Positions 3,343 to 19,845 of a DNA stretch of 35,596 nucleotides are shown here, piece by piece. Position 1 is the first letter of the stretch. Every line of letters starts with the position of its first letter. The stretch covers positions 1 to 35,596 of the forward strand of contig NZ_WUCC01000024.1 of NCBI RefSeq assembly GCF_009807095.1. Reading direction: 5' to 3'. A model generated the notes under the pieces. It was given only the letters and a program-made list of their open reading frames with translations, made no database searches and had not been told where the DNA came from. The position numbers were made by a program, and so were the translations under genes. Source of the stretch: Rathayibacter sp. VKM Ac-2754 (GTDB taxonomy: Bacteria > Actinomycetota > Actinomycetes > Actinomycetales > Microbacteriaceae).

Positions 3343-3533
3343 GGTGCAGCTCCTTCAATCGGTGCGGTCGTGGTGAGGGTCGGTGGGGCGGGAATCGCGC
3401 TCTGCACCGTCGCGGTAAACGCGAGGGTCGCGGCCGTGGCCACGAGGACCGCGACAGCCAGGAGCCCAGCGATCGCGCCGGCCTGGCCAAGCGGACCCCG
3501 CAGCAGTGCGCCCCGGGTGCGGGTGGCCGTCAC
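3339..3533 (-). CDS. Small single-pass membrane protein in the transfer operon
   Basis: A 64-residue protein with a basic N-terminus (several Arg and Thr), one long hydrophobic stretch at about residues 18-42 (Ala/Val/Leu-rich), and a short Pro/Thr-rich tail. I chose the GTG at 3533-3531 because it overlaps the upstream stop in a GTGA arrangement, as its neighbours do. It overlaps the traG start by 4 bases on the other side. No family is recognised. A structural or assembly role at the membrane beside TraG is inference from the operon position. Confidence 0.65.
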   Translation of the reverse strand: MTATRTRGALLRGPLGQAGAIAGLLAVAVLVATAATLAFTATVQSAIPAPPTLTTTAPIEGAAP

Positions 3534-3790
3534 GACGTCACCAGCTCCGCCAGGGGCACGGGCGCCAGCAGGAACCGGCGCGGCTCGCACCGCTCATAGA
3601 TCGGCCCGTCGTAGCGCGGCGTCGCATCGGCCGCCGCGGCCTCACAGCTCGTGCCCCAGGTGAGAATCGCCTGCCCGGCGTCGACGTACTCGACCGGCAG
3701 GTCCGCCAAGTGGTCCATGTGCGGGAGCGTCGTCGTCATCCCGCAACCCCAGAGGTATCCGTCGTAGACGACCGTCGACGTGCAGCTCAC
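3530..3790 (-). CDS. Small Cys-containing hypothetical protein in the transfer operon
   Basis: An 86-residue protein with four cysteines and a soluble, mildly acidic composition. Aromatic and acidic residues cluster in the first half (VVYDGYLWGCG, VEYVDAGQAILTWGTSCE). There is no membrane helix. It begins at GTG 3790-3788 and overlaps the genes on both sides by 4 bases, so it is translationally coupled within the virB4-to-traG block. I do not recognise the family. The overlapping start and stop arrangement and the good codon use argue that it is real despite its size. Confidence 0.65.
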   Translation of the reverse strand: MSCTSTVVYDGYLWGCGMTTTLPHMDHLADLPVEYVDAGQAILTWGTSCEAAAADATPRYDGPIYERCEPRRFLLAPVPLAELVTS

Positions 3791-3996
3791 GAGAGCACCT
3801 GCCCCCACAAGCCGGCGGCCGTCACTCCCGCGGAGACAGCCAGCGCCGTCCAGCAGCCGAGGGTGGCGACGTGCTCGACGTCGGCCTTCACATCCGCGAC
3901 TCTCAGCCGCACGGCGAGGACGCTCCCGGCGAGGAGAGCGCCCACAGTCACGATCGACACCCCGACCGCGGCGACGGTGACGGCCGTGGCGGTCAC
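3787..3996 (-). CDS. Small two-helix membrane protein in the transfer operon
   Basis: A 69-residue hydrophobic protein with two predicted membrane segments (about residues 4-27 and 46-64) joined by a charged linker containing RLRVADVKADVEH. The start GTG at 3996-3994 overlaps the virB4 stop (GTGA) and its stop overlaps the next start in the same way. The size and two-helix topology resemble small inner-membrane T4SS parts such as VirB3 or PrgI-like peptides, but sequence similarity is not evident. An unknown membrane component is the safer call. Confidence 0.65.
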   Translation of the reverse strand: MTATAVTVAAVGVSIVTVGALLAGSVLAVRLRVADVKADVEHVATLGCWTALAVSAGVTAAGLWGQVLS

Positions 3997-5954: not shown

Positions 5955-6017
5955 TGGGGGCCTCCAAGAAGGGACGAAACGACGGCAAGGACGGGCGAGG
6001 GCTGAGGGTTAAGCCGA

Positions 6018-6047
6018 GACGGCACCGGACGTGTGTCCAGTGCCGTC
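6018..6047 (-). promoter_or_regulatory. Intercistronic hairpin upstream of virB4
   Basis: GACGGCAC and GTGCCGTC form an 8-bp stem enclosing a further GGAC/GTCC pairing and a GTGT loop. It sits in the only sizeable gap between the SCO6880-like gene and virB4. It could be a partial terminator, an RNA-processing site or an mRNA stabiliser that sets the ratio of upstream to downstream genes. I see no convincing promoter beside it. Confidence 0.55.
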
Positions 6048-6066
6048 CTGGTGGTGGCGGTATCCG

Positions 6067-7584
6067 TCACAACGCTTCCCGGACCTCGTTGGGGATGCGC
6101 AGATGCCGAGGCAGGACCAGACCGAGCGGGAGCGCGGCAGCGAACGCGGAGTCCTGCGACCCGAACGCCGGCCGCATCCGCAGCCGAGCCGCGGACGTCA
6201 GCGAGTCGATCGCGGCGCGGGCCTCCGGCTCCTGGGTGCGGTCCATCGTCGTGGCGGTGACGATCAGGCCGAAGTTCATCAGCCCGGCGCCGGAGGCTTC
6301 CTCCGCGGCTGTTGCCTGCGCCGAGCGGGTCGAGAGCGTCGAGCGAGCGGTCGGCTTCGTGGAGGCCGAGCTGTTGAACTGCGCAGCGTTGAGGTCCGCC
6401 TCCACCAGCGCGGCAGCTCGGGCCGGATCGATCGGGCGGTACAGCAGCGTGACGCGCTTGCGGGCGACGTCCCGGTGCGGGGCGAGCAGGCGAGCGAGGA
6501 TGCCCGCCTGCACCACGCCGCGCGGCGGAGCGGTCATCGTCCACGACGTCGACACGGCCCCGTCGTGCCGGTATGAGTCCCAGTGCGCTTCGGCCGCGGC
6601 GGGGCCGACGTCGGTCCAGGACAGGTCGGCCGTCTCTCCCGCTGCGCGGGCCTGGTCGATGAGCATCGCGGCGTCGGGGTCGTAGGCGGTGCGGATGACC
6701 TCGCACAGCTCCTGCGCGTTCAACGGCCGAGCGGCGCCCGCGCCGGTCGCTGCCAGCGAGGACGTCAGCCCGGGGATGCGAGAGGAGAGGTCGGTGGCGA
6801 CCTCCTTCGCGTTGCGGCGCTTTCCGCCGATGCGGGCGGTCGCCGTGAAGGTCAGAGCGATGTACGCGCGGATCGTCGCGGAGCCCACGGGGTAGCTCTC
6901 CACGACCTCTTGGAGCATCGCTCGAGCGAACAACGGAGCGTCGGGGTCCATCGATCCCTCGACCTCACCGCGCAGGCGCGTGCCCGTGTCAGGGGCCGTC
7001 TCGACCGTGACCGAGGCGGCCTCGATGCCGGGCTCGTCTCCGAGGTTCGCGAGCCAGATGCCGTACTCCGCGACCTGGTTGTTGATCTGCTCCTGGTCCA
7101 CCAGCGCAGCCCCGTCCGGCTCCGTCGCGAGAACCACGGTGAAGTGCTTCGTGGTCGGGGTGCTGATCAGCGCGAACCGGCGCCCGTGAGAGTCCTCGTG
7201 CTCCGTGAGCTGCGACGCCGCGGCCAGGCCCGGGAGCTGGAACGTGCCCCACTTCGCGCGGCCGATCGGGCCGGAGCGGTAGATGTTCGCTCCCTTGCTC
7301 TTGGTACGCCACCAGTTCACGCGGACCACCATCCTTCCGAGGGCTGATTGCCCGTGCTTGTCCTTGACCGAGACGGTCAGGAGGATGCCGCCGAAGACGG
7401 CGGCGACGATCAGAGCTGGCCCGAGGCCGGCGAACATGGACGCGACGATCGAGGAGAGGATGCCCACGAACATCACGAGGGTGGCGACCTGCCCCAGGCC
7501 GCCGAGACCGGCGGTCTGCGGCTTTCGCCAGTTGCCATAGGTGCGGGCCTTAACCGGATCGGTCGCTGTAGCTGTGCTGGTCAT
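6067..7584 (-). CDS. SCO6880-family transfer protein (PrgI-like plus VirB4 N-terminal-like)
   Basis: A 505-residue protein of the actinobacterial SCO6880 type. Two closely spaced membrane helices lie at about residues 32-70 in a PrgI-like arrangement, followed by a VKDKHGQSALGRMV segment and a long soluble region with the NWWRTKSKGANIYRSGP motif that I associate with this family. The C-terminal part has LLYRPIDPARAA and a PRHLRIPNEVREAL ending. In actinobacterial T4SS loci this protein precedes a short VirB4 ATPase, exactly as here, and it probably serves as the membrane platform for it. The start is the ATG at 7584. The gene lies 3 bases after the trbL-like stop. Confidence 0.85.
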   Translation of the reverse strand: MTSTATATDPVKARTYGNWRKPQTAGLGGLGQVATLVMFVGILSSIVASMFAGLGPALIVAAVFGGILLTVSVKDKHGQSALGRMVVRVNWWRTKSKGANIYRSGPIGRAKWGTFQLPGLAAASQLTEHEDSHGRRFALISTPTTKHFTVVLATEPDGAALVDQEQINNQVAEYGIWLANLGDEPGIEAASVTVETAPDTGTRLRGEVEGSMDPDAPLFARAMLQEVVESYPVGSATIRAYIALTFTATARIGGKRRNAKEVATDLSSRIPGLTSSLAATGAGAARPLNAQELCEVIRTAYDPDAAMLIDQARAAGETADLSWTDVGPAAAEAHWDSYRHDGAVSTSWTMTAPPRGVVQAGILARLLAPHRDVARKRVTLLYRPIDPARAAALVEADLNAAQFNSSASTKPTARSTLSTRSAQATAAEEASGAGLMNFGLIVTATTMDRTQEPEARAAIDSLTSAARLRMRPAFGSQDSAFAAALPLGLVLPRHLRIPNEVREAL

Positions 7585-7587
7585 GGT

Positions 7588-9189
7588 CTAGCTCCCGTTC
7601 TCGTTGCTGCCGGTTGCGTCATTAGTGGCCGACTTCACGGCCTCCGCGGCGTGCTTCGCGCCTTCGGCCGCCTTCGTCGCGACCGCGATACCGGCGCCGA
7701 TCGGGCCGGCCGCTGCCGCTGCGCCGCCTGCTGCCGCGCCGCCCGCTGCCGCGCCGCCGCCTGCTGCCGCGCCGCCGCCCGCTGCGGCACCTGCACCCGC
7801 GCCGGCTCCGCTCGTCGCGGCTGACCCGGACGGGTCCGCTGCCGGCGATGACGCAGGAGAGCCGGGAGAGGCCTTGCTGCCGGTCGGGCCGTCCGTAGAC
7901 GAGCTGCTGCCGCCTCCGCCGCCTCCGCCGCCGCCGTTGTTGCTGGCGCGGATCGCACCCGTCGCGATGTCGCCCGCGCCGCTGATTGCTGCTGCACCGA
8001 GGAGCAGGCCCGCGCTTCCGCCGCCGCCGACCGAGGAAACGGCCGGGACGAGGAAGCGCATCAGCGCGGGCAGGGCCACGAGAGCGATGAGCATCAGAGC
8101 GAGGCCGGTCATGATCTGGAAGAGCCCGGTGCCGTCCGACTTGAAAAGGTCGGTGCCGGTCATCCGGAACGCGATCGCGTAGACGATCGCCGCCGCCGGC
8201 TTGTAGAGGATGAAGGCGATGGTCCAGGCCATCGCCTTCTTGAACCACTGCCGCCCGATTTCGGTGTTCGTGAAGGACGCGGCGACGGGGAAGATGCCGG
8301 CGAGGACGACGAGCATCGCGCCGCGGAAGACCATCAGCGCGATCTGGACGTAGGTCATCACTACCGCGAGCATTCCCAGGAAGAACAGCCCGATCAGACC
8401 CACAGGCGAGGTCAGAGTGAGGCCGATCATTGCCGAGACGTTTGTGCCGAAGCAGTTCGATTCACCGTTGGTGATGCTGCAATCGGTGGAGTTTTGGAGA
8501 ATCCACACCGAGAACGCATCGCCCGCCTGAGTGGCGAGACGAATAACGACGAGGCCGGCTCCGGCGACAGCGATCAGAGTCAGGACCGAGCCCATCAGCT
8601 CCTTCAACGGAGCCGCGCGCTGCGTCCAGACCATTCGGCCGGCCGCGACGAGCACGGAGAGGACAGCAAGGCCTCCGGTGTACCACTGCAACTGACCCTG
8701 CACCCAGCCGACGACCGAGGAGGACTCGTTCAGGTGCATCGCCAGGGGCAGGAACCCGGTCACGAGCGCGGAGGCGGAGGAGAGCAGCAGGACGGCGAAG
8801 ATGATGACGCCGACGCGGCCGAAGTGAGCCTCCCCATCGCCGTGACGGCGGCGAGAGGCCATCATCACTCCGGCGAAGATCAGCGACATGATCGCGAGGC
8901 CGGCGGACACCCACGTGACGTAGCCGAGGATCGTCTCGAACGCCTCCGGCAGCGGCGGGGTGCCGCCGCCGTTTACTCCGCCTCCACGGTCCACGACCGT
9001 CACAGGGGACGGGACTTCCACCCAGAGGGTGCCGAGGGAGGCGATCGCCTTGCCGTAGCCCTCGAAGATGTTGTTGACGAACTCCTGCAAAGCGTCGTTT
9101 GTCGCCTGCGAGACGACCTGACCGACGCCATCGCCAACTACGCAAAAGACATCGAACGGGAGGCAGGGCTCACCCTCGGGAGGGGCCAT
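7588..9189 (-). CDS. TrbL/VirB6-type polytopic channel protein
   Basis: A 533-residue membrane protein with about seven hydrophobic segments between residues 85 and 395. An extracytoplasmic loop carries two cysteines (TDCSITNGESNCF). The last 130 residues are very low in complexity (poly-Gly, Gly/Ala/Ser), ending in a helical Ala/Lys segment. This pattern fits TrbL/VirB6 proteins, which form the inner-membrane channel of conjugation systems and often have such tails. The start ATG at 9189-9187 overlaps the preceding stop by one base (TAATG). The repetitive Gly/Ala coding region makes this stretch prone to length change. Confidence 0.85.
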   Translation of the reverse strand: MAPPEGEPCLPFDVFCVVGDGVGQVVSQATNDALQEFVNNIFEGYGKAIASLGTLWVEVPSPVTVVDRGGGVNGGGTPPLPEAFETILGYVTWVSAGLAIMSLIFAGVMMASRRRHGDGEAHFGRVGVIIFAVLLLSSASALVTGFLPLAMHLNESSSVVGWVQGQLQWYTGGLAVLSVLVAAGRMVWTQRAAPLKELMGSVLTLIAVAGAGLVVIRLATQAGDAFSVWILQNSTDCSITNGESNCFGTNVSAMIGLTLTSPVGLIGLFFLGMLAVVMTYVQIALMVFRGAMLVVLAGIFPVAASFTNTEIGRQWFKKAMAWTIAFILYKPAAAIVYAIAFRMTGTDLFKSDGTGLFQIMTGLALMLIALVALPALMRFLVPAVSSVGGGGSAGLLLGAAAISGAGDIATGAIRASNNGGGGGGGGGSSSSTDGPTGSKASPGSPASSPAADPSGSAATSGAGAGAGAAAGGGAAAGGGAAAGGAAAGGAAAAAGPIGAGIAVATKAAEGAKHAAEAVKSATNDATGSNENGS

Positions 9190-9923
9190 TAGACACCTGC
9201 CCAGGGGGTGTAGCCGCCGAGAGATTGCAGCTGAGTAGTCGAGAAACGCTGCTGTCCGTTATCGGTAAGTTCCATTTTCCAATCGCCTTCAACCCAGGTC
9301 ATCGCCATGGGGTAACTGACCAGGCCTTCGCCCGCGGTGGAGGTGACCCGCCAAGCCAGATCGATCACGGCGTTGTCGGCCGTGTAGGACGTGATGTTGT
9401 AGCCGACGAGCTGAAGACGGCTAGATGAAACGGGCCGGTTGGGGTCCGCGCTCGCAATGGCGATGTCACGACCGGGGCCAGGCGCAACCAGCTCGGTCAC
9501 GCGCGCGGCGGTCTGTGCATCAGACGACATGGCCACGTAACTGACGGCGGAGAACAGGGCGCCGGCCGCTGTGTGCGCAAAGCACGTGCGGAAGCCGTCG
9601 TCATCAACCACGCCCGGGCCGACGAGGGGCGACTCGGGCACTGCGACGGTCCCAGTGATGTTCCACTCTGCTTCCGGAGGAGAAGTCAGGGTGTTGGTCT
9701 CCTCGTATCCGGGGAGGTCGCAAACGCTTGCCGCGTCAGCGTCGATGTTCGGGGTGGAGCTGGTGGTAGGCGTCGCGGTGGCGGCGGGTGTGTTCTGCCC
9801 GCCGCCACCGCCCAGGGACGTGACGGCGAGGAGGATCGCTGCCAGGACGAGGGCTCCGAAGATGATGGCTCCGAAGATGAATCCTCGACTGGTGAACGGG
9901 TTGCGAGACTCCGTGTCGCTCAT
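9189..9923 (-). CDS. VirB8-like bitopic transfer protein
   Basis: A 244-residue protein. It has a short cytoplasmic N-terminus, one membrane helix at about residues 14-36, a Gly/Thr/Ser-rich linker (about 38-60) and an extracytoplasmic domain of about 180 residues. That domain holds two cysteines, a helical first half and a strand-rich second half reading DLAWRVTST, MAMTWVEGDWKMELTDNGQ. Topology, size and the strand pattern resemble the NTF2-like VirB8/TcpC domain of T4SS assembly factors. The call rests on topology and position between the pilin-like and TrbL-like genes, not on a diagnostic motif. A structure prediction showing an NTF2 fold would settle it. Confidence 0.65.
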   Translation of the reverse strand: MSDTESRNPFTSRGFIFGAIIFGALVLAAILLAVTSLGGGGGQNTPAATATPTTSSTPNIDADAASVCDLPGYEETNTLTSPPEAEWNITGTVAVPESPLVGPGVVDDDGFRTCFAHTAAGALFSAVSYVAMSSDAQTAARVTELVAPGPGRDIAIASADPNRPVSSSRLQLVGYNITSYTADNAVIDLAWRVTSTAGEGLVSYPMAMTWVEGDWKMELTDNGQQRFSTTQLQSLGGYTPWAGV

Positions 9924-9968
9924 GACGTCATGCCTTTCGTTGGTGGTGCCGGTCGGTTTCCCCGGACG

Positions 9969-10274
9969 CTACGCGCCCATCAGGAACCCGACGATCGTGA
10001 ACGCGGCGGACACGATGATCACGCCGACGAGGAGTCGTCCGAGCCAGCCGCCGATTTCTCCGCCTTCGCCGCGGCGGGCGGAGACGGTCATGGTGACGCC
10101 GAGGATGATCAGGCCCACGACGGCGACGCCGAGGCCGACCCACTTGGCCCAGCCCATGACGACCGTGAACGACTCGAATCCGGGGGGCATGCCGCCGGGG
10201 CCCGGGTCGGGGACGACGGCGCCGAGGCTGCCGGCGGCCGAGATGAATTCGGTTGCTGCGAGGAGTGCAGACAT
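9969..10274 (-). CDS. VirB2/pilin-like small membrane protein
   Basis: A 101-residue protein starting at ATG 10274-10272. A longer in-frame extension reaches into the upstream gene and looks spurious. The N-terminal 35 residues are Ala/Gly/Pro-rich, and two membrane helices lie at about residues 43-62 and 78-98, separated by a short charged loop (SARRGEGGEIGGW). The two-helix layout and the place in the operon match VirB2/TrbC-type subunits of Gram-positive systems. No long N-terminal leader is evident. The stop TAG is at 9971-9969. The next gene follows after 45 bases. Confidence 0.68.
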   Translation of the reverse strand: MSALLAATEFISAAGSLGAVVPDPGPGGMPPGFESFTVVMGWAKWVGLGVAVVGLIILGVTMTVSARRGEGGEIGGWLGRLLVGVIIVSAAFTIVGFLMGA

Positions 10275-10344
10275 GGTGTGCTCCGTTTCGTGTTGGTGGT
10301 GCGGGGTGTTCGGTGCCGCCGGTTGGGGCGCCGAAGAGGACCGG

Positions 10345-11514
10345 TTATCCGGTGATGAGGGGGCCGTCCGCGTAGGCGACGTCGAAGTGCAGGTGGTTCG
10401 GGGTGTCCCCGAACTGCGTGATGTGCTGATACGTGGTCGAGCGGCACTGAATCTGGCCGGCGCGCGAGCCCATCGGCACCTGCGGGTCCAGGACGGTGAG
10501 GAGCTGGAGAGCGTTCGCATCGCAGCCCGTCGTGGCGGTGCCGGCGAAGGAGTAGAAGTCGACCGCGTGGCCGCCGCCGTCCATCCAGTGCGAGGACCCG
10601 GTGCCGGCGCCCAGGAGTGAGCCGGTGCACTGGCGGTTGAGGTCGGAGACGCCGACCTTCCCGAACGTGTTCAGCGCAATCGTGATGATCTGGAGAATGC
10701 GCACATCGATCGCGCAGTTCTCCTTGGCGGTTCCCGCGGCCATGTCGCGAATCTGCTGCGCGTACCGATCCTCGAGAAGTGTCAGGTTCCCGGCGTCCAT
10801 CGCGGCAACGAGGTTCGCGGCGAGGGCCTGTGCATCCCCCGAGACAGCGACGCACCCACCGACCGGCGCTGCCGTCGCGGGCGGTGTGCCCACGGGCGTC
10901 GACGGGAGGCCGACCGGCGCCGTCGACGTCGGGGCGCTCGTGGCGCCGCCGAGGCTGGTCAGGTAAGCCATGATCGCCACGGCGTCGGAGCGGTACTTCG
11001 TGTAGTGGTTCGGGTCGGCGTTGCGCTGCACCTTGTTGATCGCGATGGAGGGCTCCATCGCCTGCCACCCCTCAACCTTCACGAGGCGGTCGTAGAAGAA
11101 GCCAGCCGACGTCGTAGGGTCCATGCGCTGCTCGACGGTGCCCCAGCTCGACTGCTGCTGGAAGAGACCGATGGAGTCAGCGACCGATCCGTCCGGGTTG
11201 ATCGCGCCGTCTCCGTAGCTGATGTTCACCAAGGAGGACTCCCCGATCGCGGTCTGCACGCCGAGGGTCTGCCCGTCAGCGCCGAGCCCCTTCGCCGCTC
11301 CCGCGTTCACGATCAGTGCAGCGTTCACGAGCTGGTCGTGCCCGTAAGCGCCGACCTTCGCATCCGCCGGGATCGCCGCGACGTTCACCGGTCCCCCGCC
11401 CGGCAGGCATGCCGCCGCGGCGGCGCCGCCGAAGAACAGCACCCACAGCAGCAGCGCGATCGCTACGACGGGCACCATGACTGCCGCCAGCACCCCCAGT
11501 CCCCCCTTCTCCAC
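10345..11514 (-). CDS. Membrane-anchored cell-wall hydrolase (lysozyme-like plus M15-like domains)
   Basis: A 389-residue protein with an N-terminal membrane helix (about residues 8-30). A lytic-transglycosylase-like domain follows at about 50-195, with the likely catalytic Glu92 in AIGESSLVNISYGDG and the SIGLFQQQSSWGT segment. The C-terminal domain carries SHWMDGGGHAVDF and NHLHFDV (His374 and His376), resembling the zinc-binding pattern of M15/VanY-type peptidases. It is the VirB1-like enzyme of the system and would open peptidoglycan for the channel, cutting both glycan and peptide. The GTG start at 11514-11512 lies 3 bases after the lipoprotein stop. The peptidase subfamily is uncertain; the lysozyme-like fold is more secure. 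Confidence 0.82.
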   Translation of the reverse strand: MEKGGLGVLAAVMVPVVAIALLLWVLFFGGAAAAACLPGGGPVNVAAIPADAKVGAYGHDQLVNAALIVNAGAAKGLGADGQTLGVQTAIGESSLVNISYGDGAINPDGSVADSIGLFQQQSSWGTVEQRMDPTTSAGFFYDRLVKVEGWQAMEPSIAINKVQRNADPNHYTKYRSDAVAIMAYLTSLGGATSAPTSTAPVGLPSTPVGTPPATAAPVGGCVAVSGDAQALAANLVAAMDAGNLTLLEDRYAQQIRDMAAGTAKENCAIDVRILQIITIALNTFGKVGVSDLNRQCTGSLLGAGTGSSHWMDGGGHAVDFYSFAGTATTGCDANALQLLTVLDPQVPMGSRAGQIQCRSTTYQHITQFGDTPNHLHFDVAYADGPLITG

Positions 11515-11517
11515 GCG

Positions 11518-12048
11518 CTACTCCGAAGCCAGAGGGGTGATCTGCTCAACAGCCCACGGGGCCGTCTCGACGGTGCGGTGGACGTACACCGAGTACTCCC
11601 CCGCATCGGTGGGCACGAGGATGCGCATCGTGAAGGCGCCGTCACCGTCGCGCACGGTGACGGGGCCGGTGAGGGTCGTGCAGGGCACGTTCGCGGGGTC
11701 GACCGTCTCGTAGGCGACGGCCGCCTGCTGGCTCAGGAACGGGTACAACTCAGCGATCCACGTGTCGTAGTCCAGCGTCGGCCGGCAGAACGCCGTCACC
11801 GCGCTCGTCGCGAGGCTGACCGTCTCGGCCTCAGCCGAGGCGTCCTCAGTGATTTCCGCATCGCTCGGCACAGCTTCGGTCGGAGCTGCGCTCGGCGTCG
11901 CGGGCGCTGAGGTAGCCACGGACGAAGGCGCCGCGGTCGGAGAGCTGGTGCTTGTCGGTGCAGGTTCCGTGCTCAGGGAGCACCCGGTCAGCCCGCACAT
12001 TGCCAGCGCTACTGCGCCTGCAATCGGCATCAGTCTCGTTCCGCTCAC
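11518..12048 (-). CDS. Lipoprotein, first gene of the transfer operon
   Basis: A 176-residue predicted lipoprotein. I place the start at GTG 12048-12046, which has AGGGGA six bases upstream. An ATG at 12078 would give 10 extra residues with no ribosome site. The signal peptide runs to a lipobox Leu-Thr-Gly-Cys at residues 20-23. A Ser/Thr/Pro/Ala-rich linker follows to about residue 75, then a compact domain with cysteines (TAFCRPTLDYD, VPCTTLTGPV) and a strand-rich end. It would sit on the outer face of the membrane. It may be a VirB7-like or NTF2-like assembly factor, but no family is recognised. Confidence 0.75.
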   Translation of the reverse strand: MSGTRLMPIAGAVALAMCGLTGCSLSTEPAPTSTSSPTAAPSSVATSAPATPSAAPTEAVPSDAEITEDASAEAETVSLATSAVTAFCRPTLDYDTWIAELYPFLSQQAAVAYETVDPANVPCTTLTGPVTVRDGDGAFTMRILVPTDAGEYSVYVHRTVETAPWAVEQITPLASE

Positions 12049-12204
12049 GCTGTTTCCCCTCGTCTGGACGAGGTTCACTCGCCACGACGAGCCTAACTAC
12101 TTTTTGAGCCCACCACCACGTTTGATGTGTGAACCACCAAGAAATAAGTTACGGTGCCCATAACCCCGCGAGGGATTTGTTGCTCAGTGCGCCATGATTG
12201 ATGC
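12049..12204. promoter_or_regulatory. Divergent promoter region of the transfer operon and the first winged-helix gene
   Basis: A 156-bp gap, clearly more AT-rich than its neighbours, between the head of the minus-strand transfer operon and the plus-strand regulator at 12205. It must hold the promoter of the long transfer transcript. CCACCA and GGTG-type half-sites recur around 12108-12150. The plus-strand gene has no ribosome site. CATGAT at 12190-12195 is a possible -10 for a leaderless message. These elements are tentative. Confidence 0.5.
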
Positions 12205-12558
12205 ATGCCCGACCCCTCGCCCATCCCGATACCCGACGAGGTGAAAGTGGCGATACGTGTCATTGGGGACGAGATCAACCACCGCATCCTGTGGTTCTTG
12301 CTTCACCTCGATCAGCCCGAGCGCGGCTCCTACTTCGGCCCGATTCGCAAGCAGGTGCCGGAGAAGACGGCAGAGACCGTGCGCCGTCACCTTGTGCAGC
12401 TCGAAGACGCCGGAGCGGTCATCGTTGACACTCCCGTCGCTGATCGGCCGGGACGGACCGTGCTGTACCGCGCAGACAAGGCCTTCATTAAGGCGCTGTT
12501 CGCGCAGAGCGAGGCCAACATGTTCGCTGACGCCCCCCGGCCGGAGGTCGGCCTCTAG
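12205..12558 (+). CDS. Winged-helix (ArsR-like) transcriptional regulator
   Basis: A 117-residue DNA-binding protein. Residues 10-90 read as a winged helix: IRVIGDEINHRILWFLL as the first helix, then the recognition-helix region PEKTAETVRRHLVQLEDAGAVIVD and a wing with RPGRTVLYRAD. This is the layout of ArsR-like repressors. No metal-binding cysteine pair is present, so metal sensing is unlikely. It is the divergent neighbour of the transfer operon and a natural candidate for its regulator. It converges on the next gene; the two stop codons overlap in CTAG. Confidence 0.8.
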   Translation: MPDPSPIPIPDEVKVAIRVIGDEINHRILWFLLHLDQPERGSYFGPIRKQVPEKTAETVRRHLVQLEDAGAVIVDTPVADRPGRTVLYRADKAFIKALFAQSEANMFADAPRPEVGL

Positions 12559-12893
12559 GCGCACAGCTCCTCGCGGAGAAGGTCTGCGCACGCGGCAGTC
12601 CAGGTCGCGTGCAGCTCGGCGCGATTGACCTCGTAGGTGTGCGCGCGCCCCGAGTTCTCGTGGACGTCGACCAGGCCCAGCTCCTTGAACACCCGAAGCG
12701 GTGGTCGGATCGAGGTCGGTGGAAGCGCCGTCAGTTCGGCAAGCTCATCGCACGTCGCCGGGCCGTGAGTGACCAGCGCGCGGATGACCAGCCAGCGGCG
12801 CTCGTTGAAAACGGCCACCGTCCGGCGCGTGTCCCCCACGCCCGGCTCGATGACGCCGACTGCCTGATCCCCTGAGTTGTTCCCCGTACTCAT
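12555..12893 (-). CDS. Winged-helix transcriptional regulator
   Basis: A 112-residue winged-helix protein: VFNERRWLVIRALVTHG, CDELAELTALPPTSIRPPLRVFKELGLVDVHENSGRAHTYEVN, then a C-terminal helix with two cysteines. It belongs to the same broad fold as the convergent neighbour at 12205 but the two are not obvious copies. The start ATG is at 12893-12891, directly beside the inverted repeat GAGGTA-CAC-TACCTC, which suggests autoregulation. The promoter is divergent to that of the HTH gene at 13001, so this protein may control that cassette. Confidence 0.8.
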   Translation of the reverse strand: MSTGNNSGDQAVGVIEPGVGDTRRTVAVFNERRWLVIRALVTHGPATCDELAELTALPPTSIRPPLRVFKELGLVDVHENSGRAHTYEVNRAELHATWTAACADLLREELCA

Positions 12894-12894
12894 A

Positions 12895-13008
12895 GAGGTA
12901 CACTACCTCGACAAGTAGCAGCCTGCTACCCATCCAGGGGGCGTCCAGCGCTCGTAGAGCAGACATTCATCCTCAGAAACGCAGGTGCTAGCCTACCTGG
13001 ATGGGTAG
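12895..13008. promoter_or_regulatory. Divergent operator region with nested inverted repeats
   Basis: Three inverted repeats lie in about 110 bp. First, GAGGTA-CAC-TACCTC at 12895-12909. Second, GTAGCAG-C-CTGCTAC at 12915-12929. Third, a perfect 13-bp pair, CTACCCATCCAGG at 12926-12938 and its complement at 12996-13008, whose right arm contains the ATG (13001) of the HTH gene. A plausible -10, TAGCCT at 12989-12994, would give a leaderless transcript. The spaced arms suggest repressor looping across the promoter. Confidence 0.7.
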
Positions 13009-13669
13009 TCGAGCGCAGGTCGGACCGTCGTATTTCTCTCTACAGATCGTGGAGGCCATACGACAGCTCCTCCCGCGCAGCGGCATGACAACCACCGAAC
13101 TGATCGAGAAATCGAAGTTCTCGCCCAACTACTACTACGTGCGAATGCGCGCCGACGCGCCGTTCGACGCCGACGACATCGAGCAGATCGCCACCGCCCT
13201 CGATATGACTGTCGCTGAATTCGTCACTCTCGCAGCAAGCACACTCGTCACAGAGCAGAAAGCGCAGCGACGGATCGCCACCGTCGACAAGTCCGAGCTG
13301 GCCCGGCGACTGACGTTCCTCTCGAATGGCCTTTCCGCGGACGCCGTAATGGAGTTGGCCGGCCCTGACGCTTCCTTCGACGTGCTCGACTGGCAGCGGA
13401 TGGCGAATGGACGCGGCGATGGTCGCGAGTACTTCGATGTACTCACGACCCTTGCAACCATCTTTGACGTTGACCCCCGATACCTGTACCAAACCGGCGA
13501 TAGAGAGCTTGCCGAGCAGATCGAAGCGCAGAAGGACTTCGCCAGGGCGGTCGACGAAACCGGCGTGACCAGCATTGCAGCGCGCGCATTCGATGAGATT
13601 AGCCCCGCTGAGCTGCGCGCGTTGACCAAGACCATTCGGACGCTGCACCAAGAACGATCGAGGACCTGA
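13001..13669 (+). CDS. HTH (XRE-like) regulator with paired HTH segments
   Basis: A 222-residue regulator. An XRE-like HTH lies at about residues 10-72 (MTTTELIEKSKFSPNYYYVRM, then a DIEQIATALDMTVAEFVTLA segment). A second HTH-like unit sits at about 100-168, ending in FDVLTTLATIFDVDPRYLY. The C-terminal helix reads LRALTKTIRTLHQERSR. The start ATG at 13001 lies inside an operator arm and just after a -10-like TAGCCT, so the mRNA is probably leaderless. The stop overlaps the next start (TGATG). HTH proteins paired with ImmA-type proteases are repressors inactivated by proteolysis in ICEBs1-like elements; that role here is inferred. Codon use is less GC-biased than in the transfer genes. Confidence 0.82.
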   Translation: MGSRAQVGPSYFSLQIVEAIRQLLPRSGMTTTELIEKSKFSPNYYYVRMRADAPFDADDIEQIATALDMTVAEFVTLAASTLVTEQKAQRRIATVDKSELARRLTFLSNGLSADAVMELAGPDASFDVLDWQRMANGRGDGREYFDVLTTLATIFDVDPRYLYQTGDRELAEQIEAQKDFARAVDETGVTSIAARAFDEISPAELRALTKTIRTLHQERSRT

Positions 13670-14190
13670 TGCGGACCCATTCACTAGACGTAACGGAAAT
13701 TCGACGCCGCGCCGCCAAACTTCTTGACGACGCCGGTATGCAGAAGTGCGCCTCTTTGGATGATGTCGTGGCGATGACGACTGAGATTCACGGAAAGCCG
13801 ATCGACATCCAAGTGACTGACGATCCCACCTACCAATCGCTCAGCGCGGTATGGATCGACTTCCCCGAATTTGCCACGGTCATCGTTCGCGCGAAAGACC
13901 GGCCCGTTTTCCGCGTCAGGGGAATCGGGCACGAGCTCGGGCACATCCTGCACGGCCACACCGGATGCCACCTGACCGCGGCTGCTTTGACTCCCCAGGA
14001 GCAGGAAGCGTTCAACCGATTCACCCGCCAGGGTGCAATCGTTCGAGGGCGCGTGTCTGCCAGCCGGCTGAACCGCCACGCGCCCGACCCTGACTTCGTT
14101 CGCGCCGAAGTCGAGGCGGAGCAGACGGGCGTGCTCATCGTCCGCCACCTCCTCATCGCTTCACATCTCGCGGACAAGGCATTCGGTTAG
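13669..14190 (+). CDS. ImmA/IrrE-type zinc metallopeptidase
   Basis: A 173-residue soluble protein with the zinc protease motif HELGH (His88, Glu89, His92) followed by a nearby HGH, as in the ImmA/IrrE family (COG2856). A conserved Glu-rich helix near the C-terminus (FVRAEVEAEQTGVLIVRHLL) may supply the third ligand. ImmA in ICEBs1 and IrrE in Deinococcus cut a cognate HTH repressor. The cognate here would be the protein encoded just upstream, with which it shares a TGATG junction. The gene downstream starts after 9 bases, so the set forms one operon. The family is secure; the substrate is inferred. Confidence 0.88.
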   Translation: MRTHSLDVTEIRRRAAKLLDDAGMQKCASLDDVVAMTTEIHGKPIDIQVTDDPTYQSLSAVWIDFPEFATVIVRAKDRPVFRVRGIGHELGHILHGHTGCHLTAAALTPQEQEAFNRFTRQGAIVRGRVSASRLNRHAPDPDFVRAEVEAEQTGVLIVRHLLIASHLADKAFG

Positions 14191-14199
14191 ACACGCGCC

Positions 14200-15162
14200 T
14201 TGATTTCGACGCTCGCGCTGCTAGGGCTGATCGCCATCTTCTTGTGGAGGACTCCTCAACAATTCCGGTTCTGGCGGAAGAAGCGCATCGCCTTCACTGA
14301 GGCGCCGTACGCCTGGATCGCGTCAGGGATCGGCATCGTCGCACTCCTCACGCTGGGGATGGCCTACCCCGTTGACACCATCGACCGCGTTCTGAGCGGG
14401 TCGAACAATGTCTACGCCGTTCAGAATGCTCTCGCGGTGACGGCTTTCTGGTTCACGCGAAAGGCCTGCCTTCTGGCGACAGGCCACCACCGAGAAAAAC
14501 AGACCAGGCTGGCAATCACTGTCATCGTTCTGATGATCGCCTCAACGGTCTCGTTCTTTCTGATCACGGATCGAGCGAAGACGTCGCCGGAGTTCATTCA
14601 CGACCACATCGAGCAACTTCCTGCCATTCTCTGTGCCGGGCTGTATCTGAGCGCTGTTCTCGTCATCGCTCTGGACCTTTTGCGACTCTCCGCGCAGGAT
14701 GAGGCTGTCGGCCATCGATTCTTCGTCGTCGCCGCTGCGCTCATCGTGGCCGGCGCTCTCGATGAAATCGCGGCCTTGCTCTTTGGATACTTTGGTGCCG
14801 CGGAAATATCAGCCATGCTCCACGCGACATTCAGCTACCTCTTCTATCCCGGCATACTCTTCGTCATGTTCGGAATCGTGTATTTCTCTGTCAAGCGCAG
14901 AAGATGGGTCAGGGCCGCCGACCGAATGCTAGCCGACCTCCGTAGCCCTATCGAGCGTCTTCGCGGAACCATCTACGAACTCACAGAGGACGAGCTTGTC
15001 GAGGTCGATATCGCTACGACACTCTTCGAGTACGTGGTAACGCTTCGTGATGCGTTGAACGACCGGGCAATAGAACTCTCTGCACAAGAAGAAGAACAAT
15101 TAGCCGCAGCCGAGATTTGGCTTGAGTCACATCTGGGATCGATTATGGAGATTTCTCAATGA
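14200..15162 (+). CDS. Seven-helix membrane protein (DUF6545/MAB_1171c-like)
   Basis: A 320-residue integral membrane protein starting at TTG 14200. Seven hydrophobic segments lie at about residues 1-15, 34-53, 71-90, 102-120, 139-157, 173-198 and 207-229. A soluble helical tail of about 85 residues follows (RSPIERLRGTIYELTEDELVEV). Topology, tail and position right after an HTH/ImmA pair fit the actinobacterial MAB_1171c family, which is annotated as a putative transporter but has no shown function. The stop overlaps the hydrolase start (ATGA). The gene is visibly less GC-rich than the transfer genes, for example AAGAAGAAGAACAATTAG near its end, suggesting separate origin. A sensor or transporter role is speculation. 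Confidence 0.72.
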   Translation: MISTLALLGLIAIFLWRTPQQFRFWRKKRIAFTEAPYAWIASGIGIVALLTLGMAYPVDTIDRVLSGSNNVYAVQNALAVTAFWFTRKACLLATGHHREKQTRLAITVIVLMIASTVSFFLITDRAKTSPEFIHDHIEQLPAILCAGLYLSAVLVIALDLLRLSAQDEAVGHRFFVVAAALIVAGALDEIAALLFGYFGAAEISAMLHATFSYLFYPGILFVMFGIVYFSVKRRRWVRAADRMLADLRSPIERLRGTIYELTEDELVEVDIATTLFEYVVTLRDALNDRAIELSAQEEEQLAAAEIWLESHLGSIMEISQ

Positions 15163-16340
15163 AGCAAGCACTTCTCGGTGCAGCGATCGGAGCTGCTGCC
15201 GTCTCGACGGCAAGCCTCGCCCTGGGTATCGCGTTCGCGAAACGGGTCGTGTCGCCGTCCAAACCCAAGACGGTCAAGGTGATCGCCGCAAGCCGCGACG
15301 TCGTTGTCCTGCCTCGTGACCTCCTGACGGCTCATCGAGGCGTGATGGGGCTCTGGTGGCCTGACGGCCACGCCATCGTCGGAGAGGTCGATCCAGCCCG
15401 CAGCGACGCCAAGCAGGTGACCCGGCATGTCCTCGCGGTCCGCGGCACCTTGCCTGCACCCGGGGAGCGTGCGATCTGGGAGGGCGACTCGTTCGACGGC
15501 CCGACCGCCGTGTCACCCGACGCCGAAGACATCACGATCGATACCGACTTGGGCGCAGCACCGGCCTGGCTCTTTCCGGGCACCACCAACGAGAGCACCT
15601 GGGTCATCCATGTGCACGGAATCCGGGCCAGCCGAGTGAACGCGCTCCGCACCGTCCCCGCCGCCTTAGAGGTTGGCTGCACGAGCCTCGTGTGTTCCTA
15701 CCGGGGCGACGGTGAGGGTCCGAATGGTCCGCGACCGGCCTCGACGCTCGGGCTGGACGAGTGGCACGACATCGACGCGGCGATGCGCTTCGCGGTCGAG
15801 CGCGGCGCCACCTCGATCGTCCTGGTTGGCTGGTCGATGGGCGCGAGCATCGTCCTCCTCGCGGCCGAGCGCTCGGCGCTGCGCCATCTCGTCCGCGGCC
15901 TCGTGCTGGTGTCCCCCGCGACGGAGTGGCGCCGCACCATGGCGAACGTCGCCGGGAAGATGGGCCTGCCCTTCCCCAACGTATGCGCGAGGCTGGCCGA
16001 GGTGGCTCTCACGCGCTGGCCGCTGACCTCGATCGTCGGGCTGAGTGGCCCGGTCGACCTCGACCAGCTCGACTGGACCGCCCGCAACCGAGTGACCGTG
16101 CCGAGCCTGGTCATCCACTCGGCCGGCGACCGCAAGATTCCGTTCGACAGCTCGCTCGCCTTCGTCGCCCAGCACCCCGACACCGCCACGCTCTGGGAGT
16201 CATCAGGAGCCGACCACGCCTGGGAGTACAACGTCGACGCGCAGCTCTTCACGTCGACCGTCGCTGCCTGGCTCCGAGCCCGGATCGAGGCCGCAGCCGA
16301 GGTCTCGCCGCAGGCGCCCACGGACCCGGTAGGGTCGTGA
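15159..16340 (+). CDS. Alpha/beta hydrolase with N-terminal membrane segment
   Basis: A 393-residue serine hydrolase. An N-terminal signal or anchor segment spans residues 5-28. The alpha/beta core starts near residue 148 with the oxyanion HVHGIRASR. The nucleophile elbow is GWSMG (Ser226), the acid probably Asp324 in SAGDRKIPF and the base His353 in SGADHAWE. The intact triad implies an active esterase, lipase or amidase; the substrate is unknown. Residues 30-147 form a separate N-terminal domain of unknown role, with FDGPTAVSPDAEDITI. The start overlaps the stop of the 7TM gene, so it is part of the same operon. The four genes together look like one pathway: repressor, protease, membrane protein, enzyme. 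Confidence 0.85.
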   Translation: MKQALLGAAIGAAAVSTASLALGIAFAKRVVSPSKPKTVKVIAASRDVVVLPRDLLTAHRGVMGLWWPDGHAIVGEVDPARSDAKQVTRHVLAVRGTLPAPGERAIWEGDSFDGPTAVSPDAEDITIDTDLGAAPAWLFPGTTNESTWVIHVHGIRASRVNALRTVPAALEVGCTSLVCSYRGDGEGPNGPRPASTLGLDEWHDIDAAMRFAVERGATSIVLVGWSMGASIVLLAAERSALRHLVRGLVLVSPATEWRRTMANVAGKMGLPFPNVCARLAEVALTRWPLTSIVGLSGPVDLDQLDWTARNRVTVPSLVIHSAGDRKIPFDSSLAFVAQHPDTATLWESSGADHAWEYNVDAQLFTSTVAAWLRARIEAAAEVSPQAPTDPVGS

Positions 16341-16862: not shown

Positions 16863-18806
16863 GTGTCTGTGCACGCCCAAAATGCCGAAGTTGACTCCTT
16901 CTCGGCGCCCTGGGCGCTGACGCGCCGGCTGAGCCCTCGCGCCGCTGTGCGCACGATGCGCCCCGACGCCTACGGCCGCCTGGACGAGAACGCCTATCCG
17001 GCCGCATTTCCCGTCTCCCCCGTCGCTCCGACCGCCCCATGGGCGATCTACCTCACAGATGACGCCGGAGCGTTCCGGCTGCTGTGCTTCGACTTCGACG
17101 GCAAGGACTCCCACGGCGTCGACGCCGACCTCATGGAGCAGGCCGCAGACGACTGCGACGCCCTCTCCGCCGTCCTCGACGGCCACCAGGTCGCTCACGT
17201 CGTCTGCCAGTCCTCCGGCACCGGAGGCCGCCACCTGTGGGTCGCTCTCGCAGAAGGCGCCCCGGCCGAGCTGGTAGCCCGCTTGGCGATCGCCGCCCGC
17301 GCGAACTTCCGCACCTTGGATCACGGGATGCTCCGCAATCCGCGCACGGGCGCTGCCCGCCCGCCGCTGTCCCCGCATCGCGACGGCAGTTTCTCGAGCG
17401 TCCTCCGCGGCCGCGCAGAGGAGCTGCTGGACACGACCGTCACCGCGGCCGCCATCGAGGCCGTCACAGCCGCACTGGAAGCGTCACGGCCGCCGCTGCG
17501 CGTCGACGCCACTCCCCCGGTACCCACGGCCACCGCGCACCAAACACACCGTCAGCTCAGTGCGGCCGGCGCCGCGCACATGGCCACGGCCGGCGGCGGC
17601 GCGAACCCGTCCTGGACGGCGTTCATGTGCCTACTCTCGGCCGCGCACGCCGGCTGGTCTGACACCGACGTCGAGCACGCCGCCCGGACCGCTCCCGGGA
17701 TGGAGCACTACCGGACCAAGAACACCGGCCGTGGCCACCGCCGGCCGCGAGCCCGCGACGAGGCCGCCGAGCGCCTTGCGCGGCAGTGGGACAAGGCCCG
17801 CCAGTACGCGGCGCTGCACGCCGTTCTCCCGCCCGAGCGCGAGCCCGCCGACCTAGCGGAGCTGGACAGCCTCGTCGCCTCCGTCAGTGCCCTCCTGGAC
17901 CGGTTCCGGGTCAGTCCCGGCCGGTGGGGTCGGAGCGAGCGGGCGACGTCAGAGAAGACGATCCTCACCGCCCTGGCCTACCTCACCCTGCACACCGGCA
18001 AGCGCACCGTCGCCGCGTCCATCCGCGACCTGGCTCTCCTGGCGGGACTGGGCCGCACCACGGCCGCCAGTGCGCTGCGGACGCTGCGCGAGGACGGCTA
18101 CGTGCAGCTCGCCGTCCTTGCGGACGGCTCGAACGCCAGCGAATGGCGACTGTCGGAGCACTTTTCCACAGGCTCACTGCAAGGTCCGGTCACAACCTTT
18201 GATAACCCCCGCCCCCCCGGGCCGCTCTTCACCGAACGAACCATGCTCCTCGCCACGCTCGAAGCCGACCTCACCGACGGCCGGCACGATCTGTTCACCC
18301 GCGCCGGCCTGGGACACCTGGCAGGTAAGGCGTACGCGCTGCTGCGCCGAGAAGGGACCCTCGCCGTCGACGCCGCCGCGACGCTGTTGGGAGTGACCGC
18401 CCGCACCGCCGCCACCGCCCTCTCCCGCCTCCGCACGCACCGGCTCATCGTCAAGCACACCACTGGCTGGGCTCAGGCGAAGCGCGATCGCCGTACCGCC
18501 GCAGCTCGCGCGCTCGGCGTCGACGGAGCCTTGATGGATCGAGCCCACCGCTACGACGTCGAGCGCGAAGTGTGGGCTTGGTGGCAAGCCGAGCTGACCC
18601 ACCGCTCCTCCTCCCCCAGAGAACGCCCTCGACGCCGACACGTCACGAGCCGGCTTCTGTTCGAGGACACCACCGCGGGCGAGCGCGTCTGGCCGCTCTA
18701 CCCCCGCGACGCCGCCGGCCGCGGTGACCACCGCGAGGCGCTGCACTGGGGACGTGCCGGCATGCTCGCCCCCGGCTCGCTCTGGTGGTCCTCGACCGCC
18801 GCATGA
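16863..18806 (+). CDS. Replication initiator with AEP primase-like domain
   Basis: A 647-residue replication protein. The N-terminal 200 residues show the archaeo-eukaryotic primase pattern: FRLLCFDFDGKD (Asp77, Asp79), SSGTGGRHLWV (His124), and RNPRTGAARPPLSPHRDGS after it. A middle helical part follows, and the C-terminal half holds two winged-helix-like units (ASIRDLALLAGLGRTTAASALRTLREDGYV and AATLLGVTARTAATALSRLRTHRLIVKH). Primase-like N-terminus plus winged helices is the layout of many actinobacterial plasmid Rep proteins. The start could be GTG 16863 or GTG 16869; neither has a good ribosome site, but a mini-ORF lies just upstream. It is followed by a small SOS-boxed gene and parAB. 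The nearby origin is not identified with certainty. Confidence 0.85.
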   Translation: MSVHAQNAEVDSFSAPWALTRRLSPRAAVRTMRPDAYGRLDENAYPAAFPVSPVAPTAPWAIYLTDDAGAFRLLCFDFDGKDSHGVDADLMEQAADDCDALSAVLDGHQVAHVVCQSSGTGGRHLWVALAEGAPAELVARLAIAARANFRTLDHGMLRNPRTGAARPPLSPHRDGSFSSVLRGRAEELLDTTVTAAAIEAVTAALEASRPPLRVDATPPVPTATAHQTHRQLSAAGAAHMATAGGGANPSWTAFMCLLSAAHAGWSDTDVEHAARTAPGMEHYRTKNTGRGHRRPRARDEAAERLARQWDKARQYAALHAVLPPEREPADLAELDSLVASVSALLDRFRVSPGRWGRSERATSEKTILTALAYLTLHTGKRTVAASIRDLALLAGLGRTTAASALRTLREDGYVQLAVLADGSNASEWRLSEHFSTGSLQGPVTTFDNPRPPGPLFTERTMLLATLEADLTDGRHDLFTRAGLGHLAGKAYALLRREGTLAVDAAATLLGVTARTAATALSRLRTHRLIVKHTTGWAQAKRDRRTAAARALGVDGALMDRAHRYDVEREVWAWWQAELTHRSSSPRERPRRRHVTSRLLFEDTTAGERVWPLYPRDAAGRGDHREALHWGRAGMLAPGSLWWSSTAA

Positions 18807-19237: not shown

Positions 19238-19251
19238 CTGAGGGGATTGTG

Positions 19252-19845
19252 ATGCGAGTAGCACTCGGAGGCTTGAAGGGCGGGGTCGGGAAGACGACCT
19301 CCGCCACCTACATTGCAGCGGGTCTCGCTCGGCGCAACGAGGGTGTCGTGTTGATCGACGCCGACCCCCAGGGTTCGGCTCTGCGCTGGTCGGAGCGCGC
19401 GGAGTTCCCCTGGCTCACCGTCGCTTTGCCGACCAAGACGATTCACCGCCAGATCGACCAGCTCGGCGGCGATGGGCATGTCGTGATCGACACTCCCCCC
19501 GGGGACCTCGGCATCGTCGCCTCTGCGATGAAGGCCGCGCGGACTCTCGTCATCCCGGTACAGCCCACGGCAGCCGATATGGACCAGCTTGCGGAGACGT
19601 TGTCCCTCGCAGGCGACGTCGCTGCGCTCAACGATCTGCGCGTCCTCATCTTGCTGACACGAGTGGTCAAGGGCACCAAGGCTCGATCCCAGACGCGCGA
19701 GGCCCTAGTGGACGCGGGACTCGACGTGATGGAGTCCGAAGTGGCGCAGGCGCAGGCGCTTGCGCTCGCGCACGGGCAACCAATTCAAGACCTCGGGTCC
19801 TACGAAGCCGTCGTGGAAGAACTCATCGAGAGCGAGAAGCGCTGA
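19252..19845 (+). CDS. parA: ParA partition ATPase (type Ib)
   Basis: A 197-residue partition ATPase with the deviant Walker A motif KGGVGKTT (residues 9-16), LIDADPQGSA after the second strand, VIDTPPGDL for switch/Walker B and a VQPTAADMDQL segment. The short length and absence of an N-terminal HTH place it in the type Ib group, which works with small RHH centromere-binding proteins. The ATG at 19252 follows AGGGG by six bases; a GTG at 19249 is an alternative. The stop overlaps the parB start (TGATG). It would move plasmid copies to daughter cells over the nucleoid. Confidence 0.92.
   Translation: MRVALGGLKGGVGKTTSATYIAAGLARRNEGVVLIDADPQGSALRWSERAEFPWLTVALPTKTIHRQIDQLGGDGHVVIDTPPGDLGIVASAMKAARTLVIPVQPTAADMDQLAETLSLAGDVAALNDLRVLILLTRVVKGTKARSQTREALVDAGLDVMESEVAQAQALALAHGQPIQDLGSYEAVVEELIESEKR

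Follow-up and report, generated by a model that had tools for sequence, protein, structure and literature searches.

The cassette described here is a set of four adjoining genes found on a 35,596-bp contig of Rathayibacter sp. VKM Ac-2754 (NZ_WUCC01000024.1, positions 1 to 35,596, hereafter the window). The genes encode a helix-turn-helix (HTH) regulator, a metalloprotease of the ImmA type, a seven-helix membrane protein, and a membrane-anchored alpha/beta hydrolase, and the set recurs as a unit in diverged loci of the Micrococcales. It looks like a variant of the ImmA-type switch equipped with a receptor and an enzyme, and as such like an undescribed signalling system. A first-pass annotation of the sequence had proposed that the four genes form a unit and that this unit senses a small signal. 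The unit was confirmed by a census of related loci, and the signalling interpretation is partly supported. Features beyond that annotation are a plasmid site beside genes for a type IV secretion system (T4SS) and a probable replication initiator (Rep), a two-part regulator, a hydrolase predicted to face the cytoplasm, and a variable enzyme slot.

Organization and conservation of the cassette

The four open reading frames (ORFs) were confirmed in the window at these positions.

13001..13669, plus strand: HTH/EspR-like regulator, 222 aa, with an N-terminal Cro/C1-type HTH at residues ~20-77 and a probable EspR-like C-terminal half at ~98-222
13669..14190, plus strand: ImmA/IrrE-like (M78-type) metalloprotease, 173 aa, with HExxH at 88-92 and glutamates E147 and E151
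14200..15162, plus strand: seven-helix membrane protein, a distant MAB_1171c relative, predicted N-out/C-in with a helical cytoplasmic tail
15159..16340, plus strand: membrane-anchored alpha/beta hydrolase, 393 aa, PF00561, with the triad Ser226-Asp324-His353

The junctions are as had been claimed: the regulator and protease genes share one base in TGATG, the membrane gene begins with TTG after a gap of 9 nt, and it overlaps the hydrolase gene at ATGA. The catalytic residues are conserved across homologs, and both enzyme and protease therefore look intact. In the hydrolase Ser226 is invariant and Asp324 and His353 are at least 90% conserved among 29 sequences including the window, and all three are invariant in a second set of 34 (window included). 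In the protease H88, E89, H92, E147, and E151 are invariant in 31 ImmA-like sequences.

The membrane gene is nearly always accompanied by an enzyme gene in Micrococcales. In a tblastn search, 42 plasmid records had the membrane gene and 55 had the hydrolase, most of them from this order. Among the 40 of 42 membrane-gene matches listed, 31 had the hydrolase in the same record and the other 9 had a PAP2 gene; the rows were matched by hand, and 15 of the 42 are from Clavibacter, with many near-copies. The membrane gene was also found in 16 of 119 genomes and in 23 of 396 Micrococcales genomes, the window's own included. When loci were chosen by the membrane gene alone, the hydrolase or PAP2 was present in 33 of 34 (16/16 and 17/18). 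The single miss (L192) is a fragment; L045, where the contig ends inside the gene, was excluded, and four weak or fragmentary places were left out. Two loci chosen by the NCBIfam model (L194, L195) have neither enzyme.

The same picture emerges from 84 distinct diverged loci with the membrane gene (92 minus 8 repeats of the same place), a total that is biased because part of the loci were retrieved via the hydrolase. An ImmA-like gene is present in 83 of them, the regulator in 72, the hydrolase in 65, and PAP2 in 16. The first-pass annotation would have counted it against the unit if such cassettes commonly lacked the hydrolase; 19 of the 84 lack it, but 16 of these have PAP2, and 3 have neither enzyme. 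Starting from the hydrolase instead, membrane and ImmA-like genes were found at 28 of 34 loci. Clustering at 70% membrane-protein identity, before the hydrolase-scan loci were added, gave 30 clusters with the hydrolase, 10 with PAP2, and 3 with neither. The gene order varies, with eight four-gene arrangements (five when both enzymes are merged), and the set stays together even where the hydrolase lies on the opposite strand (7 cases).

Regulator, protease, and membrane protein

The regulator appears to have two DNA-binding-type halves, the second one EspR-like. The N-terminus matches Pfam HTH_26 (Cro/C1-type) at 3.3e-4, just under the cut-off. A profile from 28 homologs matches the EspR structures 4ndw (4.2e-12), 3r1f, and 3qf3 across ~130 residues; the window sequence by itself finds only ClgR (E 0.046).

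The assignment of the second gene to ImmA-type proteases stands on its invariant HExxH motif and glutamates, but its Pfam M78 score is under the cut-off (14.3 bits, cut-off 22, E 0.037). NCBI names the homolog in L038 as ImmA/IrrE family. Two Protein Data Bank (PDB) matches to clostridial toxin chains around the HExxH motif (E 0.74 and 2.2) were taken as chance. The plasmid has a second M78 gene at 22712-23650, in which an ArdC antirestriction N-domain is fused to an M78-type peptidase domain.

The third protein is predicted to have seven helices in an N-out/C-in orientation, a helical cytoplasmic tail, and possibly a fold like that of G protein-coupled receptors (GPCRs). On the whole its conservation is highest at the outer face. 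The first-pass label MAB_1171c-like does not hold for the window protein itself, which has nothing above Pfam threshold, no match to NF042915 (MAB_1171c) or DUF6545 up to E 1, and a score short of the curated NF042915 cut-off of 100 bits; in the source genome NF042915 has no match at E 0.001. However, NF042915 is matched by 13 of 32 membrane homologs (best 1.6e-27), and a single iterated profile unites the window-type proteins with the MAB_1171c set. The homology to MAB_1171c runs through this wider family. A PDB search gave one weak match (E 0.045), and a sub-threshold match to SLATT_4 (E 0.2) was not built on. Weak Pfam matches of one or two homologs were not used either: 7TMR-DISM (0.0069), PalH (0.0083), colicin immunity (0.0027), holin (0.0066), DUF2177 (0.00097), and others. 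On plasmid pTC1 of Paenarthrobacter aurescens TC1 (L115, 5984-8156) the membrane-protein gene is interrupted by ISAau1 transposase genes and flanked by hydrolase and protease/regulator genes.

The hydrolase and the variable enzyme slot

The hydrolase belongs to a large family, within which the cassette members are mostly set apart. It matches PF00561 with 41.3 bits (cut-off 25.8, E 1.8e-10), PDB sequence searches return distant esterases and other hydrolases, and the closest named relative is from Rathayibacter sp. SD072 (88% identity). It has one N-terminal helix. In 30 of 34 sequences this helix is followed by more positive charge than precedes it, and the catalytic domain is therefore predicted to be cytoplasmic.

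A hydrolase-family match occurs in 86 of the 119 genomes, and the source genome holds a second, chromosomal copy. No cassette gene lies near 15 paralogs (18 kb examined for each, 9.4 kb for one); these were hand-picked away from membrane-gene matches, so their solitude is no independent test. The neighbours of chromosomal paralogs are mostly common housekeeping-type genes that give no functional clue, with another set at L098-L100. In a FastTree hydrolase phylogeny of 76 rows the cassette label changes 6 times, compared with 17.8 when shuffled. Most chromosomal members form their own group, and L098-L099, the lone L226-L229, and L249 fall among the cassette hydrolases. Relatives occur on Deinococcus plasmids (L026, L036), where the remaining cassette genes are absent from the stretches examined. 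In L029 and L181 the hydrolase is split over two ORFs.

Two unrelated enzymes occupy one slot. Wherever PAP2 replaces the hydrolase, its gene adjoins the membrane gene. The PAP2 motifs SxH and SR...(D)H are present in most sequences inspected; against PF01569 the L034 protein scores 28.7 bits (cut-off 27.2), and those of L053, L033, L193, and L210 fall below the cut-off. On a membrane-protein tree of 95 rows (a quick tree with several long branches) the hydrolase label changes 2 times and PAP2 6 times, compared with 29 and 19 when shuffled. Plasmid unnamed2 of Arthrobacter sp. U41 carries both a hydrolase cassette and a PAP2 cassette (L024, L121), each with its own Rep-like gene. At L188 and L189 a protease-membrane pair lies between two different PAP2-like genes.

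Further enzymes are found beside the parent MAB_1171c family in other orders. Eighty loci were collected, of which five have no membrane ORF (L214, L280, L289, L303, L304), leaving 75, and two (L203, L257) were lost in gene choice, leaving 73; one genus (g89) is over-represented in the sample, and genes were called heuristically (GC3). An ImmA-like gene lies within 3.5 kb in 70 of the 75 and an EspR-like regulator in 47; after gene choice the counts are 52 and 46 of 73. Within 600 bp, one FAD-oxidoreductase group is present at 20 of the 73 loci, PAP2 at 10, and the hydrolase profile at 3 (in L208 the match is weak and upstream). Among 32 hand-picked same-strand genes that abut the membrane gene outside Micrococcales, at least 26 encode an enzyme. 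The Pfam tally is FAD_oxidored 12, PAP2 9 (at 1e-4), amidase 2, and one each of amidohydrolase, methyltransferase, and short-chain dehydrogenase, and several of these genes share 4 or 8 bases with the membrane gene. Sixteen opposite-strand (convergent) genes include 4 FAD enzymes and 3 alpha/beta hydrolases; three of the sixteen (L272, L275, L282) may be shadow ORFs. For the second gene downstream (28 scanned), FAD and PAP2 are absent among the 25 of 29 families listed, and 7 of the 28 match an SMP-30/gluconolactonase-like family (parent loci L201-L307), a possible clue to a lactone.

Candidate operators in the divergent promoter

The regulator gene is transcribed divergently from a small winged-HTH gene, and the 107-bp region between them has three related sites in it or at its edge.

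12903..12918, no strand: operator-like palindrome CTACCTCGACAAGTAG, one mismatch to CTACC-N6-GGTAG; L039 keeps the arms and differs in the centre
12926..12938, no strand: half operator CTACCCATCCAGG, which repeats 12996-13008 exactly in inverted orientation; the 16-base site at this place carries 2 mismatches
12993..13008, no strand: perfect palindrome CTACCTGGATGGGTAG, 0 mismatches, on the regulator start codon and identical in the close relative L039

The copies of the half operator at 12926-12938 and 12996-13008 are the only ones with 0 mismatches in the window. A scan of the whole window for the pattern with up to 2 mismatches gave 10 matches where 8.3 are expected; since this is chance level, only position and the low-mismatch sites are informative. 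The regulator promoters of 30 loci hold 18 sites within 2 mismatches, as against 164 in the remaining 493 kb, which is a 10-fold enrichment. Twelve of the 30 promoters have a palindrome, and this set includes the near-copies L040-L042. When the two sources of the pattern (the window and L039) are set aside, 12 of the 18 sites remain in 28 promoters, ~7-fold over background (calculated by hand). Sites with the exact pattern lie upstream of the regulators of the window, L039, L040-L042, and L045. The position of one site on the start codon points to autorepression, possibly of a leaderless message.

Plasmid and genomic setting

The window is a complete contig in a 3.97-Mb genome, and its ends do not overlap. 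It is a conjugative plasmid, as judged from genes for TraG, a T4SS operon, a Rep-like protein, ParA, ArdC, an SSB-like protein (sub-threshold), a DNA methylase, a resolvase, and a NikA/MobC-like protein. The features that flank the cassette are as follows.

1609..12078, minus strand: T4SS conjugation operon, with the coupling protein at 1609-3342 (TraG/TraD PF12696, 1.4e-30) and the rest without Pfam match
10345-11514 and 11518-12078, minus strand: lytic enzyme and putative lipoprotein of this operon, which has SCO6880-type and other T4SS genes
12205..12558, plus strand: second small winged-HTH gene, convergent with 12555-12893; the same profile matches both
12555..12893, minus strand: small winged-HTH regulator, divergent from the cassette, with sub-threshold ArsR-type matches; its profile is found in 33 loci
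16863..18806, plus strand: probable replication initiator (Rep), with sub-threshold primase-like and winged-HTH matches; the L114 homolog is annotated as replication protein
19249..19845, plus strand: ParA partition ATPase (AAA_31 1.1e-14, CbiA 1.8e-13)

Homologs of the T4SS genes found by profile are annotated as SCO6880, CHAP/M23/transglycosylase, TrbC/VirB2, and lipoprotein. The two small winged-HTH genes are similar to each other and overlap by 4 bases, and such genes recur beside many cassettes. In the window, L039-L042, L044, and others the T4SS genes lead away to the left, and the regulator, ImmA-like, membrane, and hydrolase genes are followed to the right by Rep and ParA.

The cassette is often, but not always, tied to mobile elements. 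Of the 84 distinct loci, 29 have two or more T4SS families and 37 have Rep, but 34 have no Rep, ParA, or T4SS gene pair in the stretch examined. Some of these 34 adjoin genes that by eye resemble the primase-polymerase, DUF2637, excisionase, or relaxase genes of integrative elements. In other orders L211 and L213 likewise adjoin T4SS-type genes. UmuD/Y-family polymerase genes lie near the cassette on two plasmids (L020, L118).

Proposed mechanism and alternatives

The cassette may act as a proteolytic switch that is coupled to the membrane and brings its own enzyme for processing the signal, here serving a conjugative plasmid; we consider this reading about as likely to be right as wrong. We infer its binding, cleavage, and signalling steps, the direction of the enzyme, and the lipid nature of the signal as follows. 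The regulator would bind the CTACC-N6-GGTAG palindromes of the divergent promoter, one of them on its own start codon, and would repress its own operon along with the adjacent transfer (or Rep) genes, the latter either directly or by way of the small winged-HTH gene. The outer face of the seven-helix protein, which is conserved, would detect a lipophilic signal, and the cytoplasmic tail of this protein would turn on the ImmA-like protease, which would inactivate the regulator. The membrane-bound hydrolase would make or, more likely, clear the signal or a precursor, and in this way set the background or self-induction. A stable core keeps partner enzymes of different chemistry, as would be expected if the enzyme tunes the ligand of the receptor-like protein; a shared structural role would scarcely allow such swaps.

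Several observations weigh against this mechanism. Prediction places the hydrolase on the cytoplasmic side, whereas the conserved loops of the putative receptor face outside, and helices 2 and 7 of the membrane protein are also well conserved in their inner halves. EspR is a nucleoid-associated protein rather than a simple repressor. No palindrome within 2 mismatches is present in 18 of the 30 regulator promoters, and the one on the start codon lies over coding sequence whose first residues (MGR) are conserved. At 40 of the 73 parent loci there is no gene for any of the three profiled enzymes within 600 bp; some of these carry other enzymes, and in others none was recognised (for example L201; L253, PadR-like; L261, bestrophin-like; L199, YkuD). 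The controlled operon is not fixed, since at L021, L023, L037, L046, L049, and L218 Rep is transcribed divergently from the regulator or cassette and the T4SS lies downstream. A role purely as regulator of a transfer operon is not upheld, given the 34 loci away from Rep, ParA, and T4SS gene pairs. Curtobacterium has a chromosomal-looking form with no detectable regulator on large contigs (L231-L235, L239, L241, L244, L246, L247). By eye, its neighbours are genes that we take to be those for HMG-CoA synthase/reductase (mevalonate pathway) and for glutamate synthase, gltB. The seven helices, the membrane-bound enzyme, and the regulator-protease pair are compatible with the small-signal system of the first-pass annotation, but cleavage, the ligand, the substrate, and the controlled genes are conjectural.

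The switch could also be one form of a more general scheme, which we put forward tentatively. In modular actinobacterial signalling of this kind, a GPCR-like receptor of the MAB_1171c superfamily would control an EspR-like regulator by way of an ImmA protease, and an interchangeable enzyme paired with each copy would make or break its lipophilic signal. The enzymes would be alpha/beta hydrolase, PAP2, FAD oxidoreductase, amidase, amidohydrolase, or methyltransferase, and conjugative plasmids would use one form to time transfer.

What is sensed might instead be the cell's own membrane. The cassette would then sense envelope stress, such as a change in membrane lipids caused by assembly of the mating channel or by damage, and the enzyme would be the output that repairs or remodels lipids, with no signal between cells. 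Both the hydrolase and PAP2 are membrane-bound and by family have lipid-like substrates, the hydrolase is akin to a chromosomal gene in most genomes (86/119), and the Curtobacterium copy lies between the presumed mevalonate-pathway genes and gltB. However, amidases, amidohydrolases, methyltransferases, and FAD oxidoreductases also occur in the slot and have no obvious common role in membrane repair, and we regard this explanation as rather doubtful.

Detoxifying-type enzymes in the slot could also fit a transporter-resistance cassette, in which the seven-helix protein carries a compound out of or into the cell, the enzyme alters that compound, and both are induced through the regulator-protease pair. 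The NCBI family name of MAB_1171c is 'putative transporter', and a MAB_1171c knockout formed less biofilm according to the available portion of PMC8707978. Seven helices in N-out/C-in orientation, a soluble tail, and a GPCR-like fold are unusual for transporters, though, and the window protein matches no transporter family up to E 1; this role is unlikely.

A toxin-antitoxin or addiction module, in which the protease or enzyme is the toxin, the regulator neutralises it, and the plasmid is kept, is quite improbable. Pairs of Xre and COG2856 genes were predicted to be such modules in the part of PMC2701414 consulted, a Brucella pair was studied as one in that of PMC10538038, and the cassette lies beside Rep/ParA and includes the sub-threshold SLATT_4 match. 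But a set of four genes that includes a receptor-like membrane protein and an exchangeable enzyme is not how toxin-antitoxin systems are laid out, no toxin family is over its cut-off for any of the four proteins, and the same portion of PMC2701414 argues that the protease cleaves the Xre repressor. That the hydrolase is an unrelated neighbour which landed beside the other three genes is extremely improbable and was rejected on the locus census: its family is large, with a paralog on the chromosome of the same genome and many solitary members (the 15 hand-picked), but hydrolase or PAP2 accompanies the membrane gene in 33 of 34 loci, the cassette hydrolases mostly cluster apart from the common chromosomal paralogs, and adjacency is kept even on the other strand.

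Relation to known systems and significance

The cassette shares parts with several known systems and adds to each of them. As in ImmR/ImmA of ICEBs1 (and IrrE/DdrO), a gene for an M78-type protease adjoins that of an HTH regulator, on a conjugative element. The ImmA-ImmR pair governs conjugation of ICEBs1, with ImmA relieving the repressor, according to the sections of PMC6540685 that were available. Unlike that pair, the cassette has an EspR-like regulator half, the seven-helix protein, and nearly always an enzyme; cleavage in the cassette is putative. Of the MAB_1171c/DUF6545 family (NF042915, PF20182), NF042915 is matched by some of the membrane homologs, and the parent loci mostly have ImmA-like and often EspR-like neighbours, whereas the window protein has no match. 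The available text of PMC8707978 does not mention an enzyme partner for MAB_1171c, and a search of open-licence papers found none on DUF6545, which is a weak negative.

In profile comparison the last ~130 residues of the regulator family align with mycobacterial EspR over its length, but the cassette differs in its plasmid site, in the promoter palindromes, and in a Cro/C1-type domain added at the N-terminus of the regulator in the window and in some family members. It resembles the Xre-COG2856 pairs, as presented in the excerpted text of PMC2701414, in having an HTH and HExxH protease pair on mobile DNA, and differs in its membrane protein and enzyme and in the absence of a toxin match. By description of function the cassette also resembles PrgY of pCF10, a membrane protein that is encoded on the plasmid and believed to reduce the signal of the donor itself (PMC6540685, same sections); the signal there is a peptide, whereas the enzyme families of the cassette suggest a lipophilic one. 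In the open-licence papers searched there is no account of transfer control on Micrococcales plasmids (soil Arthrobacter and plant-associated genera), again a weak negative.

The named gene set, the candidate operators, and the paired enzyme swaps make the question of transfer control on these plasmids testable. A widespread family known as 'putative transporter' becomes a candidate receptor with a protease relay, and the neighbouring enzyme hints at the ligand of each copy.

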